Below the pieces are notes generated by a model. It saw only the letters and a list, made by a program, of their open reading frames with translations. It was not told the DNA's origin and ran no database searches. From Rhodopila globiformis (GTDB taxonomy: Bacteria; Pseudomonadota; Alphaproteobacteria; Acetobacterales; Acetobacteraceae), in the NCBI RefSeq assembly GCF_002937115.1, contig NZ_NHRY01000232.1, positions 1-64,000 of the forward strand: 64,000 bases of DNA. The letters are read 5' to 3'. Shown here piece after piece: positions 7,967 to 44,331 of this stretch. The position numbers and the translations under genes are program-made. Numbering within the stretch: position 1 is the stretch's first letter; the number at the start of each line of letters is the position of its first letter.

Positions 7967-9079
7967 ATGCCTCACCCCGAAACCTGGCTGAAGGTGCTGC
8001 CCAACGGCCTGTACTGCGAGCCCGGCGGGTTCTACGTCGACCCGCTGCGGCCGGTGGACCGTGCCGTCATCACGCATGGACATGCCGATCATGCCCGGCC
8101 CGGCCATCGTGCCGTGCTGGCGACCGCCGATACGCTGGCGGTGATGCGGGCACGGCTGGGCGAGGGGAACGCCGGCCACACCCAGCAGGCGCTGGGCTGG
8201 CACGAGCCGATCGGTCTGGGCGACGTCAAGGCCTGGCTCAGCCCGGCCGGCCATGTGCTGGGCAGCGCCCAGGTCGCGATGGAATACCGCGGATCGCGCG
8301 TCGTGGTCAGCGGCGACTACAAGCGCACGGCTGACCCCACCTGCGCCGGCTTCGAGCCGGTGCCCTGCGACGTTTTCGTCACCGAGGCGACCTTCGCCCT
8401 GCCGGTGTTCGTGCACCCGCCGCCCGCGCAAGAAATCCGCCGGCTGCTGGACAGCGTCGCCCTGTTCCCCAACCGGACGCATGTCGTCGGCTGCTATGCG
8501 CTGGGAAAGTGCCAACGCCTGATCGCGCTGCTGCGCCAGGCGGGATGGGACAGACCGATATGGCTGCACGGCGCCCTGTCCGCGATGTGCGCGCTCTACC
8601 AGCAGCGCGGCATCGACCTGGGCGACCTGCGCCCCGCCACCGTCGCGGCGAAAGCCTCCCTGATCGGCGCCATCGTGCTCGCGCCTCCGGGCGCGATCGC
8701 CGATCGCTGGGCGCGGCGGCTGGAGGATCCGGTGGTGGCGCTGGCCTCCGGCTGGATGCGGGTGCGGCAGCGGGCGAAGTCCCGCGGCGTGGAACTACCG
8801 CTGGTGATCTCCGACCACGCCGACTGGAATGAGCTGAACGCGACCCTCGACGACGTCGCCGCGCCCGAGGTCTGGGTGACGCATGGCCGCGAGGAAGCGC
8901 TGATCCACGCCGCCGCGCAGCGCGGCATCCGCGGCCGGGCGCTGCGCCTGCTGGGCTACGGCGACGAGGACGACGGGGAACCGGCCCATGGGGACACCAC
9001 TCAGGGGGACACCACTCAGGGGGACACCACTCAGGGAGAACGACATGACGAAGCCGCTGGCCTTCACCTTCCGGGATGA
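7967..9079 (+). CDS. ligase-associated-type DNA exonuclease (metallo-beta-lactamase fold)
   Basis: A 370-residue metallo-beta-lactamase/beta-CASP protein of the group annotated as ligase-associated DNA exonuclease or mRNA 3'-end-processing-factor-like. The metal motif HGHADH is at residues 37-42, with SPAGHVLGSAQ, SGDYKR, and beta-CASP motifs in the second half including a late VTHGREEALIH. It should be a nuclease acting in DNA repair. The usual partner, an ATP-dependent DNA ligase gene, is not next to it. The C-terminus is odd: after the normal YGDEDDGE end it carries three copies of a five-residue HGDTTQ-like repeat encoded by a 15-bp tandem repeat (8990-9034). It then runs 35 bp into the next gene. 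Confidence 0.88.
   Translation: MPHPETWLKVLPNGLYCEPGGFYVDPLRPVDRAVITHGHADHARPGHRAVLATADTLAVMRARLGEGNAGHTQQALGWHEPIGLGDVKAWLSPAGHVLGSAQVAMEYRGSRVVVSGDYKRTADPTCAGFEPVPCDVFVTEATFALPVFVHPPPAQEIRRLLDSVALFPNRTHVVGCYALGKCQRLIALLRQAGWDRPIWLHGALSAMCALYQQRGIDLGDLRPATVAAKASLIGAIVLAPPGAIADRWARRLEDPVVALASGWMRVRQRAKSRGVELPLVISDHADWNELNATLDDVAAPEVWVTHGREEALIHAAAQRGIRGRALRLLGYGDEDDGEPAHGDTTQGDTTQGDTTQGERHDEAAGLHLPG
8990..9034 (+). repeat. 15-bp tandem repeat, three perfect copies
   Basis: Three head-to-tail copies of GGGGACACCACTCAG occupy 8990-9004, 9005-9019 and 9020-9034. They are in frame with the 3' end of the exonuclease gene (coding GDTTQ) and lie just upstream of the cupin start. The last copy supplies the GGGAG part of that gene's ribosome binding site. 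Slippage would change the protein tail in steps of five residues without a frameshift. Confidence 0.95.
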
Positions 9080-33650: not shown

Positions 33651-34328
33651 TCAGGCCAGGGTGATCGGGCGATCCGGGAAGGAAAGCTGCTCGCGGCGGA
33701 TCCAGTTGGGACGGACGTAGTTGATTTCCATCAGCCGGCGGACGCCGACCAGCGGGCGCGGCTCGAAGCCATGCCACGAATGCGGGCCGGCGATGAAGAT
33801 CGTGCCGGAATCGAACTCGCCCGAGGCGCGGCCGATCCACTTCACGTCGTGGTCGTAGATGTCGGTGCCCCAGTTCACCGAGTCCGGGCCGTGAAACAGG
33901 TAGATCACCAGCGAGAAGATCTTCTCCGGGATATCCCGGTGCGGCTCCAGCCAGGCGCCGTCGATGTCCTGGATGTACTCGATCCGCAGGTAGCCGCCTT
34001 CAGGCTCGACGTCGCAGGTTTCGGCCAGGGCCCGCGCCACCGTCGGGCGCTGGAACGCCTGGGCCATGGCCTCGCAGCAGTCGAACTTGCCGCGCAACGT
34101 CGGATTCAGATACGTGCGCTGGTCGTTGTAGGTGCCGCGCGTGCCATCGGTCTTGCCGAGAAACGCCGGGCATATCGGCAAGGTCAGGATGCCGATGCAC
34201 AGGTTCAGCGGCAGGACCTCCTTCATCTTCCAGGTGCGGTACGGCTCTTCCGAGCGTTGGCACGCGCGCAGCGACTGCAGGAAGTGCCGCTCGATCTCGT
34301 CAGCCGAAACCTCGGGGGGGAACTTCAT
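33651..34328 (-). CDS. 2OG-Fe(II) oxygenase, second paralogue
   Basis: A 225-residue 2-oxoglutarate/Fe(II) dioxygenase. The facial triad is H130-R-D132 in LEPHRDIPEK and H186 in HSWHGF; R197/R198 should bind 2OG. The N-terminal 60 residues are unlike the first paralogue. Its ATG overlaps the stop of the upstream oxygenase (TAATG). The two share the distal HSWHGF motif and arose by duplication and divergence, or were recruited from one subfamily. The substrate is unknown; protein, peptide or small-molecule hydroxylation are all possible. Confidence 0.85.
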   Translation of the reverse strand: MKFPPEVSADEIERHFLQSLRACQRSEEPYRTWKMKEVLPLNLCIGILTLPICPAFLGKTDGTRGTYNDQRTYLNPTLRGKFDCCEAMAQAFQRPTVARALAETCDVEPEGGYLRIEYIQDIDGAWLEPHRDIPEKIFSLVIYLFHGPDSVNWGTDIYDHDVKWIGRASGEFDSGTIFIAGPHSWHGFEPRPLVGVRRLMEINYVRPNWIRREQLSFPDRPITLA

Positions 34329-35017
34329 TACTTTGCTCCCGGCAACCGCTTCGGTGCCAAATTGACAATCCGGCGCAGCATCGGCACGGACTTGACGTAC
34401 GCGCTGACCCGGTGCCGCACGTACTCGGCGCGGATATAGGACTCCGAGTCGACGTAGCACAGCTGCAGGCTCATGCGCTGGGCCTTCTGCGGCAGGAAGC
34501 CGTGCCAGGAGTGATCGCACACCCGGAACATCATCATCTTGCCGAACTCCGGCGGGTATTCGAAGGCGTAGTCCTCGCGGTCCTCACTGCGCAGAATGCG
34601 CAGCTTGCCGCGCTCATGCGGCCACTCGCGGGAGAAACCAAGAAGCACCGTAATGATCTTGTGCTTGCTGTCGGGATGGGCGTAGCCCTCGTTGTAGTGG
34701 CCGGTCGTGTTGCCCATCATGACGATGTAGGGCGGGCGCTTGCTCAGGTCGATGTCGAATTTTTCCTCGACCAGGTGGCGGAACCGGTCGCTCAGCAGAT
34801 CCTGGATCACCGCGTCGAACTTCGGGCCGCGCACCAGGTCGGGCAGGGCGTAGCTGCCGCGGTCCGGGATGGTTGGCGCGTCCGCCAGGACTTCTTCCTT
34901 CAGCCGCTCCGGCAGCGCGTGGTCGATATAGCAGTAGTCATAGGGATCGTGCCGAAGTACGCCGGCCGCGACGGCGGCCTCGTCGATCATCTTCAGCGGT
35001 GCGTTGCTGTCGCTCAT
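34328..35017 (-). CDS. 2OG-Fe(II) oxygenase, first paralogue
   Basis: A 229-residue 2OG/Fe(II) dioxygenase of the prolyl-hydroxylase-like fold. Iron ligands are H114-P-D116 in GYAHPDSKHK and H172 in HSWHGFLP, and R181 is the likely 2OG-binding arginine. The preceding MMGNTTGHYNEG is typical of the beta-strand leading to the HxD motif. It is in the middle of a three-gene operon (Rid protein, this gene, second oxygenase) and is 42 bp from the Rid gene. Such enzymes need O2, which contrasts with the FNR box upstream of the operon. Confidence 0.85.
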   Translation of the reverse strand: MSDSNAPLKMIDEAAVAAGVLRHDPYDYCYIDHALPERLKEEVLADAPTIPDRGSYALPDLVRGPKFDAVIQDLLSDRFRHLVEEKFDIDLSKRPPYIVMMGNTTGHYNEGYAHPDSKHKIITVLLGFSREWPHERGKLRILRSEDREDYAFEYPPEFGKMMMFRVCDHSWHGFLPQKAQRMSLQLCYVDSESYIRAEYVRHRVSAYVKSVPMLRRIVNLAPKRLPGAK

Positions 35018-35059
35018 GTCAGGCGTCCTGTGTTCGCATGGATGCGTTCGTCGGTTTGC

Positions 35060-36223
35060 TCAGTACTGCGGCAGGCCAGGCGCGTCGTGCGGCGCTATGG
35101 CGATGCCTTCGAGTTCGATCAGCCATTCCGGGCGGCAGACGGCGCCGCGCAGCATCAGCCGCGGGATCGCCGGAAAGCGCTCGGCCAGGCAGGCGTTTAT
35201 CAGCCCGTGGTCGCTCGGGTCGCGCAGATAGACCAGGAAGTGCGTCATGTCCTCGATGCGCGCGCCGCCGGAGCGCAGCAGCGCATCGATGTTGTCCAGC
35301 GCGCGGTCAAGCTGCCGCCGCACGTCGCCGACGTGCACAACCTTGCCCGTCGAGTCGATGCTGGCCGTCCCCGAGATGAAATGATGCGCCCGGTCGGCAT
35401 AGGCGATCCGCGTGCCGCGCTCAAACGTGACGTCATAGTCCTTGGTGGCGCACAGGTAGTCGAAGTCGTTCAGGTAGGATACCTGGGCGGGGCGCAGGCC
35501 GAGGATGGAATAGGCATCCATCAGTACTGTATCATACTGATGGGAACAGGCGCCCTCGATGCCGGTGCTGGCGATGTAGTGGGTGTCGCGCGTCAGGCCG
35601 TGCTGCTCGAACAGGACGGTGCGGGCGTCGACCAGTTCCTGATAGAAGAAGTCCACGTCCTTGACGTAGATCCAGGTGCGCACGCAGTTATCGGCCAGCG
35701 TCGCCCCGTTGTCGGCCAGCGTGCCGATCAGGCGGTTGAACACCTCCCGCGTCTGGTCCGCGGTGGAACCGGGCCGGGTGGGGTTGGTGGCGCACAACCG
35801 GGTGCTCCACAGATGGCCGAGACCGCCGGTTTCGACCAGCAGGTGCTCGGGCGAAAGCTGCCGTTTCACCACCGGTGCCGGGCTTTCCCGGTGATAGGCG
35901 ACCAGCGCGACCTTGCCGTCCGGCAGCGGTGGCTGCTGCACCATCGCGACGGCGACCGGCGAATCCAGCGGCTCCCGGAACAGGCTGCTCTGGCGCAGCA
36001 GGGCGCCCTGGTTGGCGATGTCGCTGAGATAGATACGGCGGAAAATAGCCGTATCCGGCGACAGCCGCAGGGATTGCAGCGCCTCGGCATAGCGCTGGGT
36101 CACGGCATCGATCTGCCGTTGCAGGCTCAGTTCCCCGGGCGCTTCGATGACAATGTAATGTTCGGCGCAGCCCGACGAACCATAGAAGCTGCGGACGGTC
36201 TGCTCATCAAGGAATCGTATCAT
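35060..36223 (-). CDS. multi-domain Rid (YjgF/YER057c/UK114) protein, chorismatase-like layout
   Basis: A 387-residue protein made of about three Rid-like segments. The first (about 1-120) contains RQIDAVTQRYAEALQSL; the middle (about 150-225) contains VRTWIYVKDVDFFYQEL; the last (about 255-375) is a full RidA domain with ISGTASID, ALDNIDALLRSGGARIEDMTHFLVYLRD and the RGAVCRPEWLIELEGIA end that carries the conserved arginine and glutamate. The size and layout resemble the FkbO/Hyg5/XanB2 chorismatases and other extended Rid proteins, so deaminase, chorismatase or a related hydrolase role is possible. The start at 36223 follows AAGGTG. It is first in the operon with two oxygenases. Confidence 0.75.
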   Translation of the reverse strand: MIRFLDEQTVRSFYGSSGCAEHYIVIEAPGELSLQRQIDAVTQRYAEALQSLRLSPDTAIFRRIYLSDIANQGALLRQSSLFREPLDSPVAVAMVQQPPLPDGKVALVAYHRESPAPVVKRQLSPEHLLVETGGLGHLWSTRLCATNPTRPGSTADQTREVFNRLIGTLADNGATLADNCVRTWIYVKDVDFFYQELVDARTVLFEQHGLTRDTHYIASTGIEGACSHQYDTVLMDAYSILGLRPAQVSYLNDFDYLCATKDYDVTFERGTRIAYADRAHHFISGTASIDSTGKVVHVGDVRRQLDRALDNIDALLRSGGARIEDMTHFLVYLRDPSDHGLINACLAERFPAIPRLMLRGAVCRPEWLIELEGIAIAPHDAPGLPQY

Positions 36224-36648
36224 AGTCGCTTTACACCTTAAAAGGGTGCGGCGAGGCAACCCCGGTTTTCCCGCAGGTGGATCGATTCTACTATTGAATC
36301 ATCTAGGTCGCCGCAATCACGGGCGTCTTTGATCTGGATCAAGGCAAGCCGCCCGGTGCCGGCCGGACCGCAGTTTGCCGCGACCCGTGCAATGGCGGCC
36401 ACGGTGCCCGAGCCGATGACGGCGCGGCTCCGGGGCCGTCGCGTTGCCCCAACCGGCCTGCCGTCGCGCCTGTTCGCCATGACACGGGGGAGCGGCCGCG
36501 CCGCCAGCCCACCCTGCCGGCGCTGACGCCGGCCGCCGGGTTTGCCCCTCGCGTTCGCAATTGAACCCGGACGCAGGCCGCGTCATCACGTCGGCTCCGG
36601 CGTGCCGCGAACGGCGCGGCGACTCCGGGATGATCCGAGGTGCGATCC
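36224..36648. other. divergent spacer with FNR box
   Basis: Between the divergent Rid operon and the NHL gene. It contains the FNR-type site at 36329-36342 and, near 36476-36490, a short CATGACACGGGG repeat arm. No gene is supported; the frames on either strand here are biased by GC. Confidence 0.6.
36329..36342. promoter_or_regulatory. FNR/Anr box upstream of the Rid-oxygenase operon
   Basis: TTGATCTGGATCAA is a perfect TTGAT-N4-ATCAA palindrome, identical to the box at 44318-44331. Its centre is about 112 bp upstream of the Rid start codon. With the usual -41.5 activator position, transcription would begin near 36294 and give a leader of about 70 nt. The NHL gene on the other strand starts 307 bp away and is a less likely target. 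Confidence 0.75.
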
Positions 36649-37695
36649 ATGAGACTGGCAGTCTTTCTCGCGATCTGGCTGATGGCCGGACCCGCGCTGG
36701 CGGCGGACCCGCCGCGCATGCAGGCCGATCCGTCCTGGCCGAAGCCGCTGCCGCACCACTGGGTGCTGGGCGAGGTGTCCGGCGTGGCGGTGGATGCGGC
36801 CGACAACGTCTGGATCATCCAGCGCCCGCGCACCGCCAAGGTCGATTCGCGGCACGTCGCGGCCCCGCCGGTGATCGAGTTCGATCCGGCGGGCGCCGTG
36901 GTGCAGGGCTGGGGCGGACCCGGCAAGGGCTATGACTGGGTGCAGAACGAGCACGGCATCACCGTCGACTCGAAGGGCTTTGTCTGGATCGGCGGCAACG
37001 GCCCGGACGACGGGCAGGTGCTGAAATTCACCCGCACCGGCCGATTCGTGCTGCAGATCGGCCACCCGGCGCACGGCGCCGCCAGCAACGACGTCACCCG
37101 ACTCGGCCGCCCGGCCGAGGTGGCGGTGGATGACGCGGCGAACGAGGTCTATGTCGCCGACGGCTACGCCAACCGCCGCATCATCGTGTTCGATGCCACG
37201 ACCGGCGCCTTCAAGTGGCTCTGGGGCGCCTATGGCGGGCGGCCGGCCGACGTCACGCAGCACTACGACCCGCACGCGCCGCTGCCGCGCCAGTTCGGCC
37301 GGCCGGTGCATTGCGTCAGGCTGGCGAAGGACGGGCTGGTCTATGTCTGCGACCGGCAGAACGACCGCATCCAGGTGTTCCGCAAGGACGGCACCTTCGT
37401 CACCGAGTGGCGGATCGCGCCGGACACGACCGGCCTGGGCAGCGTCTGGGACCTCGGGCTATGGCCGGATGCCGGGCAGACCCTGCTGTTCGTCGCCGAT
37501 GGGCGGAATGAGCGGGTGCACGTGGTTCGCCGCGGCGACGGCAGGGTGCTGGGCGGCTTTGGCGCGGCGGGACGCAAGCCTGGCGAGTTCCACTGGGTGC
37601 ACAGCCTGGCGACCGACAGCCACGGCGACGTCTTCACCGGCGAGGTTGACGGCGGCAACCGGGTGCAGCGCTTCGTCCCGGCAACCGCGCCGTGA
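36649..37695 (+). CDS. secreted NHL-repeat beta-propeller protein
   Basis: A 348-residue protein with signal peptide MRLAVFLAIWLMAGPALAA, followed by a six-bladed NHL propeller. Blades are marked by repeats such as SGVAVDAADNVWIIQRP, GITVDSKGFVWIGGNG, AEVAVDDAANEVYVADGYANRRI, LVYVCDRQNDRIQVF and LATDSHGDVFTGEVDGGNRVQRF. It is related to the peptidyl-alpha-hydroxyglycine amidating lyase-like group but lacks proof of that activity. GAGG at 36636-36639 supports the start. It is convergent with the cytochrome operon. Confidence 0.85.
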   Translation: MRLAVFLAIWLMAGPALAADPPRMQADPSWPKPLPHHWVLGEVSGVAVDAADNVWIIQRPRTAKVDSRHVAAPPVIEFDPAGAVVQGWGGPGKGYDWVQNEHGITVDSKGFVWIGGNGPDDGQVLKFTRTGRFVLQIGHPAHGAASNDVTRLGRPAEVAVDDAANEVYVADGYANRRIIVFDATTGAFKWLWGAYGGRPADVTQHYDPHAPLPRQFGRPVHCVRLAKDGLVYVCDRQNDRIQVFRKDGTFVTEWRIAPDTTGLGSVWDLGLWPDAGQTLLFVADGRNERVHVVRRGDGRVLGGFGAAGRKPGEFHWVHSLATDSHGDVFTGEVDGGNRVQRFVPATAP

Positions 37696-41688: not shown

Positions 41689-42606
41689 TTACGCCGGCGT
41701 CAATTCGCGCTCCACCCAGGCGAGGCCTTCGCGCCCGTGCAGGAAACCATTCTGCCAGGGAACCTCGCCGGTCAGCCCGCGCAGTTCCTCGGCCGCTTCA
41801 TGCAGGCTGACGGTGCCGTCGAGCACGGCACGATAGGTCCGGGCCACGGCCACCATGTCCACGTCCTGCGGCGACAGGCGGAAATGCGTCACGCCCATCC
41901 GGCGCAGCGCCGCCAGTTCCTGCAGCAGCACCAGATAGCCGTTCGACAGGGTCTGCGTGCCGTTGATGGTCAGCACCCCGACGCCGTCGATCGTGTCCGC
42001 CGCCAGGCCGTCCGGGTCCTGGCCGCAGACGAACTGGCAGGTGTCCTTGGTCAGGTCGTGCGAGCGGGCGTGGTAGCAGCGCATCGCCACCGACAGAGGC
42101 TGGCGGCCGAACACCATCAGTTCGGTCTCCACCGTCGAGCGGCCGGCCAGCACGCGCACCGTGTCGGCGTTGGCTTCCACCGGCAGCACGATGCGGGTGG
42201 CGCCGTCGCGGATCACCACGTCCTGCGCGCCCTCGTTGAACACGTTGATGTACGGGCCGATGACGTGCGGCCGGCCGGCGACCTGCTGCAGGCAGGCGAC
42301 GTCGTTCGCCTCGACCAGCGCGCCGCTTTCGGCCAGCGCGCGGGCCTCGTCGACCTCGCGGTCCAGAGTCATCAGCGCCAGGGTGGAGCGCACCACCTGC
42401 TTGCCGGCGGCAACCAGGCGATGGACGACTTCCTGCATATGCGGCGCGAAGAACGACTCGCGCTTGGAGCACACGACCTCGCCCAGGTAGACGCAATCGA
42501 CCGCCGCCTCGTCGGCGATGCGGAAATAGAAGTCGCGGCGCTTCGCCGGCGTCCAGTGGAACAGCAGCGGGCCAAGCGTCAGCTTGGCCTGGGAAAGAGA
42601 CGTCAT
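41689..42606 (-). CDS. ubiV: O2-independent ubiquinone hydroxylation protein UbiV
   Basis: A 305-residue U32-family iron-sulfur protein that works with UbiU to hydroxylate the ubiquinone ring without oxygen. The four-cysteine cluster is seen in VVCSKRESF, MRCYHARSHDLTKDTCQFVC. The MTSLSQAKLTLGPLLFHW start is typical. Its ATG overlaps the ubiU stop by 4 bp (ATGA). It is the last gene of ubiT-ubiU-ubiV. Confidence 0.93.
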   Translation of the reverse strand: MTSLSQAKLTLGPLLFHWTPAKRRDFYFRIADEAAVDCVYLGEVVCSKRESFFAPHMQEVVHRLVAAGKQVVRSTLALMTLDREVDEARALAESGALVEANDVACLQQVAGRPHVIGPYINVFNEGAQDVVIRDGATRIVLPVEANADTVRVLAGRSTVETELMVFGRQPLSVAMRCYHARSHDLTKDTCQFVCGQDPDGLAADTIDGVGVLTINGTQTLSNGYLVLLQELAALRRMGVTHFRLSPQDVDMVAVARTYRAVLDGTVSLHEAAEELRGLTGEVPWQNGFLHGREGLAWVERELTPA

Positions 42607-43589
42607 CGCCAGCCCTTCCTGTAGGCGCCTGTGGTTTCGCGCTGGCCTTCGGCGACCGAGGCCAGCTTGTTGGCCACCGCCTCGTTGGAGCCACGCTCCA
42701 GCGCGTCGATCGCCTTGCGGAAGCTGCTGACGACCTCGGTGACATAGGCGCGGCTGCGCTGCCGGCCTTCGATCTTCAGCGCGGTCACGCCGGCCGCCTT
42801 CAGGTCGCCCAGGATGTCGATTGCGTTCAGCGCCACTGGCTCCTCGAACAGGTAGGTGGCACGGCCATGCGTGACGTAGCGGCCCTTGCACGGGGTCGGA
42901 TACGCCGCCGGCTCGCCCTGGCGGAAGCGGTTCAGCGTTACGTCGCCGAGGCGCGACAGCGTGGAGGCGCCGTCGTCGCGGTACGACACGTGGCTGGCCG
43001 GCGCGCAGGCGCCTTCCGTCGTCGGCGACAGGCCGGTGATGTAGGAGGACAGGAAGCAGCGGCCTTCCGACATCGGGCCGACGGAGCCGAACGCGAACAC
43101 CTCGGTCTCGATGCCGATGCGCCGGACCAGGGCGGCGACCTGCTCGACCGACAGCACGCGCGGCAGCACCACGCGCTTGATGTCGAAGCGGTCGCGGTAG
43201 AAGGCGATCGACAGCTCGTTCGACGCCGAGGCCTGCACCGACAGGTGTCGCCGCAGCTCGGGATGCCTGCGCTGGGCATAATCCAGCACGCCGAGATCGG
43301 CCAGGATCACCGCATCGATGCCGGCGGCAGCGGCATTGTCGATCGCGGCGTGCCAGGGGGCGGGATCACCGGCGCGCGGGAAGGTGTTGACCGCGGCCAG
43401 GACCTTGCGGCCATGGCGGTGGGCGTACTCGACGCCCTCGGCCATTTCCCGGACGTCGAAATTCAGGCCGGGATAGTTGCGGGCATTGGTGCAGTCGCGG
43501 AAGCCGCAGTACACCGTGTCGGCACCGGCATCGATCGCCGCGCGCAACGCCGCCGGGGTGCCGGCGGGGCAAACCAGTTCAAGACTCAT
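42603..43589 (-). CDS. ubiU: O2-independent ubiquinone hydroxylation protein UbiU
   Basis: A 328-residue U32 peptidase-like protein with a 4Fe-4S cluster. Start ELVCPAGTPAALRAAIDAGADTVYCGFRD and cysteines in GRCFLSSY, GACAPASH and TPCKGRYV fit UbiU. With UbiV and UbiT it forms ubiquinone in anaerobic conditions. It overlaps ubiT (43586-43589) and ubiV (42603-42606) by 4 bp each, so all three are coupled. Confidence 0.94.
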   Translation of the reverse strand: MSLELVCPAGTPAALRAAIDAGADTVYCGFRDCTNARNYPGLNFDVREMAEGVEYAHRHGRKVLAAVNTFPRAGDPAPWHAAIDNAAAAGIDAVILADLGVLDYAQRRHPELRRHLSVQASASNELSIAFYRDRFDIKRVVLPRVLSVEQVAALVRRIGIETEVFAFGSVGPMSEGRCFLSSYITGLSPTTEGACAPASHVSYRDDGASTLSRLGDVTLNRFRQGEPAAYPTPCKGRYVTHGRATYLFEEPVALNAIDILGDLKAAGVTALKIEGRQRSRAYVTEVVSSFRKAIDALERGSNEAVANKLASVAEGQRETTGAYRKGWR

Positions 43590-44257
43590 GGGGCTCCTGT
43601 CGCGGCGTTTCCTGCCGTCCGCATCTGCCTGACATCCATTTTGGCGAGGCGTGTCTTCAGCGCTTTCACCTCGGCGCGCAGTTCATCGCATTCGGCGGCG
43701 AGGTCGCGCGACGGCACGTTGGCCTCGTGCAGCTTGGCGTGCAGCGTGGCGACCTGCGTGCGCGCCAGGCCGATGACGCGGTCGAGCCGCCGGCCGATGC
43801 GCCGCGCCGGCCGCTCGAACGGGCCGAACAGGGCGGCGATCTCGTCACGCATGACGATTTCCTCGCGGTCGAGCGTGTTGCGCACGGCGACGCTGACCTC
43901 GGTGGAGCCGGTGATCTCGATGTCGCGGGTGAAGAACAGGGCGTCGCTGTCGATGCGGCCTTCCAGCAGGGCGATCAGCGCCGCCAGGCTGCCGCGGATC
44001 CGCGCGTCCGGGGGCGGCGGGTCGTCCTCGGTCAGGAGGCGGACGTCCATCTGTCCGGCGCCGTACTCGATTTCGAAGCGGTGCGGCAGGTCAGTCGGCT
44101 CAATGTGGATAATGCCATGGTCGAGGCGGCCGAAATTCTCGACGAGGTGCGGATGCCGCCGGCGCATGATGCGCGTCAGCAGCGCCACCATGCGCGCCAG
44201 CACCGGGCTGGGCACCATGGACAGGGCGGCGGACGCCAGTGGATGAGAGTCGTGCAT
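43586..44257 (-). CDS. ubiT: O2-independent ubiquinone protein UbiT (SCP2 domain)
   Basis: A 223-residue protein with an SCP2 sterol-carrier domain (about 40-150: RFEIEYGAGQMDVRLLT, DARIRGSLAALIALLEGRIDSDALFFTRDIEITGS), which binds lipid intermediates. A C-terminal coiled coil (AAECDELRAEVKALKTRLAKM) follows. The ATG at 44257 is chosen at the conserved MHDSHPLASAALSM; a longer frame would overlap the FNR box. It is first in the operon. Confidence 0.9.
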   Translation of the reverse strand: MHDSHPLASAALSMVPSPVLARMVALLTRIMRRRHPHLVENFGRLDHGIIHIEPTDLPHRFEIEYGAGQMDVRLLTEDDPPPPDARIRGSLAALIALLEGRIDSDALFFTRDIEITGSTEVSVAVRNTLDREEIVMRDEIAALFGPFERPARRIGRRLDRVIGLARTQVATLHAKLHEANVPSRDLAAECDELRAEVKALKTRLAKMDVRQMRTAGNAATGAP

Positions 44258-44317: not shown

Positions 44318-44331
44318 TTGATCTGGATCAA
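44318..44331. promoter_or_regulatory. FNR/Anr box upstream of ubiTUV
   Basis: TTGATCTGGATCAA is a perfect match to TTGAT-N4-ATCAA. Its centre is 67 bp upstream of the ubiT ATG. Assuming the -41.5 activating position, transcription would begin near 44283 with a 26-nt leader. This fits known anaerobic activation of ubiUV by Fnr in E. coli. Confidence 0.85.

Follow-up and report, generated by a model that had tools for sequence, protein, structure and literature searches.

What would a Rid protein and two oxygenases, encoded side by side, be doing together? The question is raised by three adjacent genes of the alphaproteobacterium Rhodopila globiformis, lying in the first 64,000 nucleotides of contig NZ_NHRY01000232.1 (hereafter the window), which code for a protein with a C-terminal Rid domain (Rid) and for two Fe(II)/2-oxoglutarate (2OG) oxygenases, OxA and OxB. 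Our analyses favour, with a probability of about 0.4, a single Fnr-controlled functional module that belongs with ubiTUV, the genes of oxygen-independent ubiquinone synthesis, Rid feeding ubiquinone and OxA and OxB acting as a paired oxygenase. On the computational side, the evidence is that the three genes are conserved together and have Fnr-type boxes upstream, that they are linked to and co-occur with ubiTUV, that Rid is modelled with a full-length chorismatase fold including the catalytic Glu, and that both oxygenases, of prolyl-hydroxylase type, have intact iron sites. A link of the module to low-oxygen biosynthesis is very probable. Its components are less secure, the use of the Rid product for ubiquinone being a tentative proposal. 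An earlier interpretation of these genes from the letters alone (the sequence-only reading) was right to see a module, and it missed the Fnr boxes, the ubiTUV link and a second OxA-OxB pair beside hemN.

A three-gene set inherited together

The three-gene set is real: its minus-strand frames lie as given in Table 1, and the stop codon of OxA and the start codon of OxB share TAATG at positions 34330-34326. We count OxB from that ATG, the mechanical list of reading frames holding a longer frame begun at an upstream GTG. Co-inheritance was followed in two samples. The first consists of 59 genomes, the window's own (G000) and 58 relatives. The second comes from a scan of named genomes that found 229 Rid relatives, the best 80 of which were taken as loci (L-numbers); 73 of these 80, with Rid identity of at least 51% in the best segment, are called close-Rid loci, and the three nearest are metagenome-assembled genomes (MAGs) labelled Rhodopila. 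L115 and L141 have Rid split into segments. When oxygenases were counted at loci, matches below 45% identity to OxA or below 42% to OxB were put aside as paralogs.

Full-length Rid occurs in 11 of the 59 genomes, and OxA (at least 72% identity) and OxB (at least 56%) occur in exactly the same 11, a match of presence and absence that suggests one pathway. Both oxygenases are encoded in the fetched flank of 59 of the 73 close-Rid loci, only one of them in 4 and neither in 10. The gene order varies across the 59 full loci: 32 have Rid-OxA-OxB, 23 have OxA-OxB-Rid and 4 are divergent. All 13 close-Rid loci without an adjacent OxA were searched genome-wide and 9 have an OxA ortholog (61-74% identity) on another contig, at least two of these cases (L095, L122) looking like one locus cut by a contig end. 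The recurrence of the same three genes in other lineages is more than chance, and the neighbourhood search supports their co-conservation. As the sequence-only reading had also held, no described pathway with this gene set was found in the literature searched, which left out most subscription journals and preprints.

Fnr-type boxes and the company of ubiTUV

We take TTGAT-N4-ATCAA as the Fnr consensus. This motif is present twice in the window, upstream of Rid and of ubiT, against a shuffle mean of 0.02 and two matches in 0 of 100 shuffles. Across the loci, 35 of 84 module transcription units have an exact TTGAY-N4-RTCAA in the 400 bp upstream, compared with 111 of 4740 windows drawn at random from these loci, and a box with at most one mismatch precedes 46 of 84 units as against 428 of 4740 (Fisher test; regions shorter than 150 bp skipped). 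Here, as in the ubiquinone-linkage and family statistics below, related genomes are counted as independent, so that P values overstate the evidence. Where OxA-OxB is on a different contig from Rid (12 pairs), an exact box precedes OxA by no more than 230 bp in 8 cases. The module is predicted from these motifs to be Fnr-controlled and looks switched on when oxygen is scarce. For the ubiTUV genes themselves, FNR sites have been predicted ahead of 1001 of 1566 ubiT and 1180 of 1566 ubiU genes (PMC11707229, in the part available).

The two sets of genes are also neighbours. ubiU or ubiV lies within 19 of the 73 close-Rid loci, compared with about 0.4 expected for 3.5 Mb genomes and random placement. 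In L104, L110, L120 and L124, ubiTUV and Rid share an orientation, opposite to that of OxA-OxB. Acidiphilium multivorum pACMV3 carries ubiT-ubiU-ubiV-rid-pdxS-pdxT in this order, with rid intact, and a second rid, fragmented over several frames, precedes OxA-OxB on the other strand; exact Fnr-type boxes stand upstream of ubiT and of this second rid. A plasmid labelled Acidithiobacillus ferrooxidans carries, behind ubiTUV, the beginning of a Rid gene and, in addition, a Rid split in two frames followed by OxA and OxB, with an Fnr-type box upstream of each operon. Acidiphilium-type plasmids (L186:14157-15175; L187:2-160, 8001-9039) have Rid twice, once behind ubiTUV and once ahead of OxA-OxB, the copy ahead of OxA-OxB being broken into several frames in both records.

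Co-occurrence points the same way. In the 35 genomes of the window's family, ubiV is present in 8 of 11 genomes with Rid versus 0 of 24 without it. Nitrate respiration alone was rejected as the explanation of the ubiTUV link, as narG does not track Rid (3 of 11 versus 4 of 24). Outside the family, ubiV without Rid is found in 2 of 24 relatives (G035, G050). A genome-wide search for UbiV covered 50 of the 61 loci without UbiU or UbiV in the flank (L070, L071, L073, L075, L079, L095, L102, L112, L115, L130 and L145 were omitted) and found it in 37 of the 44 close-Rid genomes searched, some of them also in the family count; at least four of the 50 genomes (L069, L076, L080, L089) are also among the 58 relatives, and the two UbiV counts are not independent.

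The same linkage could stem from shared Fnr control and lifestyle, not from a shared pathway. In that case, which we consider somewhat unlikely, the module would make a small chorismate-derived molecule (a metal ligand, signal or cofactor) for low-oxygen life generally, Rid forming a (dihydro)benzoate that OxA and OxB would tailor. Such a wider role would suit the Omnitrophota, which carry the module and in which UbiV was not found in the genomes searched, and the neighbours seen elsewhere, including nrdD, an MnmL-type radical S-adenosylmethionine (SAM) gene, pdxS and pdxS-pdxT, as well as the Bacteroidales-type Rid encoded beside imelysin, di-haem and cytochrome c assembly genes. It fits less well with the ranking of biosynthetic neighbours, headed by UbiU and UbiV (14 loci each) ahead of UbiT (8) and of others in no more than 7 loci, such as an LplA-type ligase (7) and ketosynthase-like genes (5), or with a family in which ubiV tracks Rid and narG does not. 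The "unknown metabolite or modification system" of the sequence-only reading is still possible, but the genomic setting speaks for low-oxygen respiratory biosynthesis.

A chorismatase-like fold and two iron sites

The C-terminal domain of Rid matches PF01042 (E 6.7e-18, 65.3 bits, cut-off 27.3), and PF04345 (UbiC) is not among its Pfam families at E up to 1. An AlphaFold model from a 59-row alignment has a mean pLDDT of 93.4. The chorismatase-like layout proposed from sequence stood in this predicted structure, which VIA-align places at Z of about 31 to Hyg5 and FkbO over some 300 residues: Z is 31.3, 30.7 and 30.6 to 5a3k, 5ag3 and 4bps, with overlaps of 298-303 residues (model 16-376), root-mean-square deviation (rmsd) of 2.7-3.0 A and 18-20% identity, and Foldseek likewise ranks chorismatases first. 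Glu370, Cys363 and Gly285 are kept in 59 of 59 Rid sequences and align with Glu334, Cys327 and Gly240 of Hyg5 (the latter two numbers transferred from the Nat-hyg5 numbering of PMC7170507), Glu334 being essential in Hyg5 according to the available part of that study. Nine more residues (R182, W184, Y194, R201, R269, Q304, N311, R334 and R364) are found in 59 of 59 sequences and in L151, a protein called XanB2-like by reading. Glu223, present in 50 of the 59 sequences, lines up with a Glu in L151; Hyg5 and FkbO carry Gly at this position.

With the chorismatases FkbO, Hyg5 and XanB2, Rid shares the full-length fold, the catalytic Glu and the ISGTAS and CR motifs, but it is without the YGP that L151, Hyg5 and FkbO have before the F-x-R motif. 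Its surroundings differ too: Rid is encoded with 2OG oxygenases and ubiTUV rather than within a polyketide or pigment cluster. The kept residues are grounds, short of proof, for expecting chorismate as the substrate, and Rid probably acts on it. Another chorismatase was seen in one of the 59 genomes (G048; 222 bits, under the cut-off), XanB2-like by our reading of its sequence and of its neighbours, a glycosyltransferase and a halogenase-like flavoprotein (a list of genes for comparison is in the available part of PMC3949708).

The PF01042 domain, common to Rid and RidA (YjgF/UK114), together with pdxS and pdxT directly downstream of rid in Acidiphilium multivorum, could instead suggest a RidA-type imine deaminase that guards pyridoxal phosphate enzymes in anoxia. 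Rid has three domains, however, and it is the whole protein that matches chorismatases, whereas single-domain Rid proteins reach Z of at most 17.8 and cover one domain. Moreover, at the position of Arg105, which we take to be the RidA residue that binds the substrate carboxylate, alignment with 2dyy places Met357, and none of the 59 sequences has Arg there, carrying I, V, F, L, M or Y. We rejected this candidate on account of that unkept position, and a deaminase role is very improbable.

Both oxygenases have the intact iron sites that the sequence-only reading had ascribed to them, and both have SWHGF around the distal histidine (HSWHGF in that reading). OxA (PF13640, 30.2 bits, cut-off 27) keeps H114 and H172 in all of 56 sequences and D116 in at least 90% of them. 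OxB, without any Pfam family at E up to 1, has invariant H130, D132, H186 and R197 in 59 sequences. The two are homologous (profile-profile probability 98.3%, 21% identity). Profile matches of OxA in the PDB include 9blq (PolD), 9ei6 (PasI) and human EGLN1. The OxB model (pLDDT 90.9) aligns best with PolD (VIA-align Z 18.4, 192 residues, rmsd 2.7) and PasI (18.0), followed by OGFOD1, Tpa1 and bacterial prolyl-4-hydroxylase (P4H). With PolD, PasI and the P4H-type enzymes they share the fold and the iron triad (OxA by sequence profile only), but OxB is only 12-14% identical to PolD and PasI, and OxA and OxB are two homologous enzymes encoded in tandem.

EGLN1 and P4H are hydroxylases that act on proteins. 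The fold leaves the target unsettled because PasI, going by the title of entry 9ei7, binds a small-molecule ligand; PolD and PasI, as nearest solved relatives, would also suit the tailoring of a small chorismate-derived molecule. OxA and OxB might thus be oxygen-sensing or repair hydroxylases of protein or RNA (compare EGLN/PHD2, or bacterial P4H acting on EF-Tu), with Rid in a separate metabolic role. The match of OxA to EGLN1 and those of OxB to Tpa1/OGFOD1 and Pseudomonas putida P4H speak for this possibility, as do the oxygenases sometimes encoded on contigs other than that of Rid and the paralogous pair next to hemN described below. We nevertheless regard it as unlikely, given the strict match of Rid, OxA and OxB across the 59 genomes and, for OxB, the precedence of PolD and PasI (Z 17.9-18.4) over protein hydroxylases (Z at most 16.3). 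That the pair acts on the product of Rid is possible, if no better than tentative.

The same genome codes for a second OxA-OxB pair without Rid (L005:7563-8866, G000:C267; 41% identity for OxB and 31% for OxA). It is divergent from hemN, which passes its family cut-off, with an Fnr-type box between. An exact box occurs just upstream of such pairs in L005, L061, L062, L063 and L068 and not in L020, L021, L024, L026 and L028, so that Fnr control of the paralogous pair is less regular. The genus has many relatives of this pair, some of them near cco-like, nar or ubiTUV genes, and OxA homologs of about 30-38% identity, paired and single together, occur in most of its genomes. A third, single OxA homolog in the window's genome (G000:C251:18433-19047, in L060; 34%) has no OxB match beside it. 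An extra close pair without Rid (L059:9763-11202, G008:C30; 72% and 59%) has neighbours named, by reading, as sulfur-related regulators, a peroxiredoxin and CcoG.

A proposed ubiquinone supply at low oxygen, and what weighs against it

In the mechanism that we propose, falling oxygen would lead Fnr to turn on the rid and ubiTUV operons. Rid, acting like XanB2, would split chorismate into pyruvate and hydroxybenzoate (4- and/or 3-hydroxybenzoate), which would provide the ring precursor for the UbiTUV route in bacteria without UbiC. OxA and OxB, as an obligate pair, would hydroxylate the Rid product or a derived compound at trace oxygen. Rid feeding ubiquinone is plausible because Escherichia coli makes its anoxic ubiquinone from 4-hydroxybenzoate (PMC6747719, in the part available), because UbiC (PF04345) was found in 0 of the 59 genomes, with E. 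coli as a positive control, and because Rid is encoded with ubiTUV. A further step would be an undescribed micro-oxic branch of ubiquinone synthesis, in which, without UbiC, the ring precursor comes from an Fnr-induced chorismatase, and traces of oxygen let the paired oxygenase hydroxylate that precursor or the ring itself. Such a branch, which we consider quite improbable as a whole, would fill the range between air, where flavin monooxygenases work, and the absence of oxygen, where UbiUV does.

The module may be an undescribed part of the upkeep of bacterial respiration at low oxygen. Hyphomicrobium denitrificans is described as lacking both UbiC and XanB2, the source of its 4-hydroxybenzoate being left unexplained in the available part of that report (PMC12423496), and a protein with a chorismatase fold, whose gene directly follows ubiTUV and stands under an Fnr-type box, offers a directly testable candidate for such a source in anoxia. 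Oxygen-using hydroxylases induced by a regulator of anoxia would be, if true, an unusual design, and the same genome has a related pair beside hemN. With the known UbiTUV pathway the module shares the Fnr-type boxes, physical linkage and co-occurrence; the available parts of the accounts in PMC11707229 and PMC6747719 do not name Rid, OxA or OxB.

Several observations weigh against Rid and the oxygenases serving ubiquinone in this way. For Rid itself, the match to TIGR04444, the FkbO/Hyg5 chorismatase family, is 45.5 bits, far below the cut-off of 325, and scores in the 11 Rid-carrying genomes are 45.6-60.8 bits. Position 223 is Gln, Gly, Asn or Ala in 9 of the 59 sequences, including two from Omnitrophota and four from Rid-only loci, and the product of a chorismatase is not accurately predictable from alignment alone (PMC3949708, in the part available). 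As for control, 49 of 84 module units have no exact Fnr box upstream, and oxygen-dependent enzymes under a regulator of anoxia are paradoxical. Reaction-centre genes, present in 6 of 11 family genomes with Rid versus 3 of 24 without, show a weaker association and make phototrophy a partial confounder. Phototrophy alone was nonetheless rejected as the explanation of the ubiTUV link; among the 13 family genomes with narG or reaction-centre genes, ubiV is in 5 of 8 with Rid and 0 of 5 without. The 24 family genomes without Rid are also without UbiC, and if those make ubiquinone, Rid is not a general source of 4-hydroxybenzoate. Rid as a clade-wide replacement of UbiC was rejected, being found in only 11 of 59 genomes while UbiC is in none.

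To the same side belong the modules that do without UbiV. UbiV was not found in 7 of the 44 searched close-Rid genomes, so that the module is not confined to UbiV genomes, and it is missing in three Rid-carrying relatives, one of them 98% complete. Three of the seven are Omnitrophota-labelled genomes with the full module, which is present in 4 of 4 close-Rid loci with that label (L128, L130, L131, L133). Omnitrophota with the module and without UbiV argue for another or wider use of the product, unless the contigs were mis-binned or recently acquired; UbiV in a Terriglobia-labelled MAG (L126) suggests that labels may be wrong. The seven Rid-only loci (L142-L148; Rid identity 37-44%) have no oxygenase in the flank and 0 of 7 gave an OxA match in genome-wide searches, while UbiV was found in 0 of the 6 Rid-only genomes searched. 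Their labels are Geobacteraceae, Lachnospiraceae, Alloprevotella, Prevotellaceae, Bacteroidales, Prevotella and Omnitrophica, mostly groups of anaerobes, where a lack of oxygenases fits the oxygen need of these enzymes.

Table 1. Features of the window discussed in the text (positions in the window)
Feature	Position	Strand	Evidence or placement
Rid, 387 aa from ATG, three-domain, predicted chorismate-converting	35060..36223	minus	PF01042, sub-cut-off TIGR04444, AlphaFold model, VIA-align
OxA, 229 aa, Fe(II)/2-oxoglutarate oxygenase of prolyl-hydroxylase type	34328..35017	minus	PF13640, iron residues, profile matches
OxB, 225 aa, second Fe(II)/2-oxoglutarate oxygenase	33651..34328	minus	invariant residues, model, VIA-align
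Fnr/FixK-type box, perfect, TTGATCTGGATCAA	36329..36342	no strand	~105 bp upstream of Rid start
Fnr-type box, second perfect one in the window	44318..44331	no strand	~60 bp upstream of ubiT
UbiT, SCP2 accessory factor, O2-independent ubiquinone synthesis	43586..44257	minus	NF047962, 77.7 bits, cut-off 46.9
UbiU, O2-independent ubiquinone hydroxylase subunit	42603..43589	minus	NF047963, 502 bits, cut-off 440
UbiV, O2-independent ubiquinone hydroxylase subunit	41689..42606	minus	NF047965, 344 bits, cut-off 275

Neighbouring genes were called by a simple script that misses or mis-starts some of them, and many of their names are our reading of the sequence, except where a family search is cited. 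The Rid-only loci L143, L147 and L188 share porin, imelysin, di-haem oxidoreductase and ResB/CcsA-type or hemerythrin genes; L143 is labelled Lachnospiraceae, yet its neighbours look like those of Bacteroidales. In L119, L121 and L129 the module is accompanied by nrdD, an activase-like radical SAM gene (by reading), an MnmL-type radical SAM gene and ubiUV, with pdxS in L129 and L119, a set of oxygen-independent biosynthesis genes. The window's genome has two separate pairs of reaction-centre genes (Photo_RC; G000:C156:30141-31811 and G000:C226:40238-41915). Upstream of the module, on the opposite strand, the window codes for an NHL-repeat protein (36640-37695; PF01436, weak match to ScyF), whose cluster comprises the window and four close loci.

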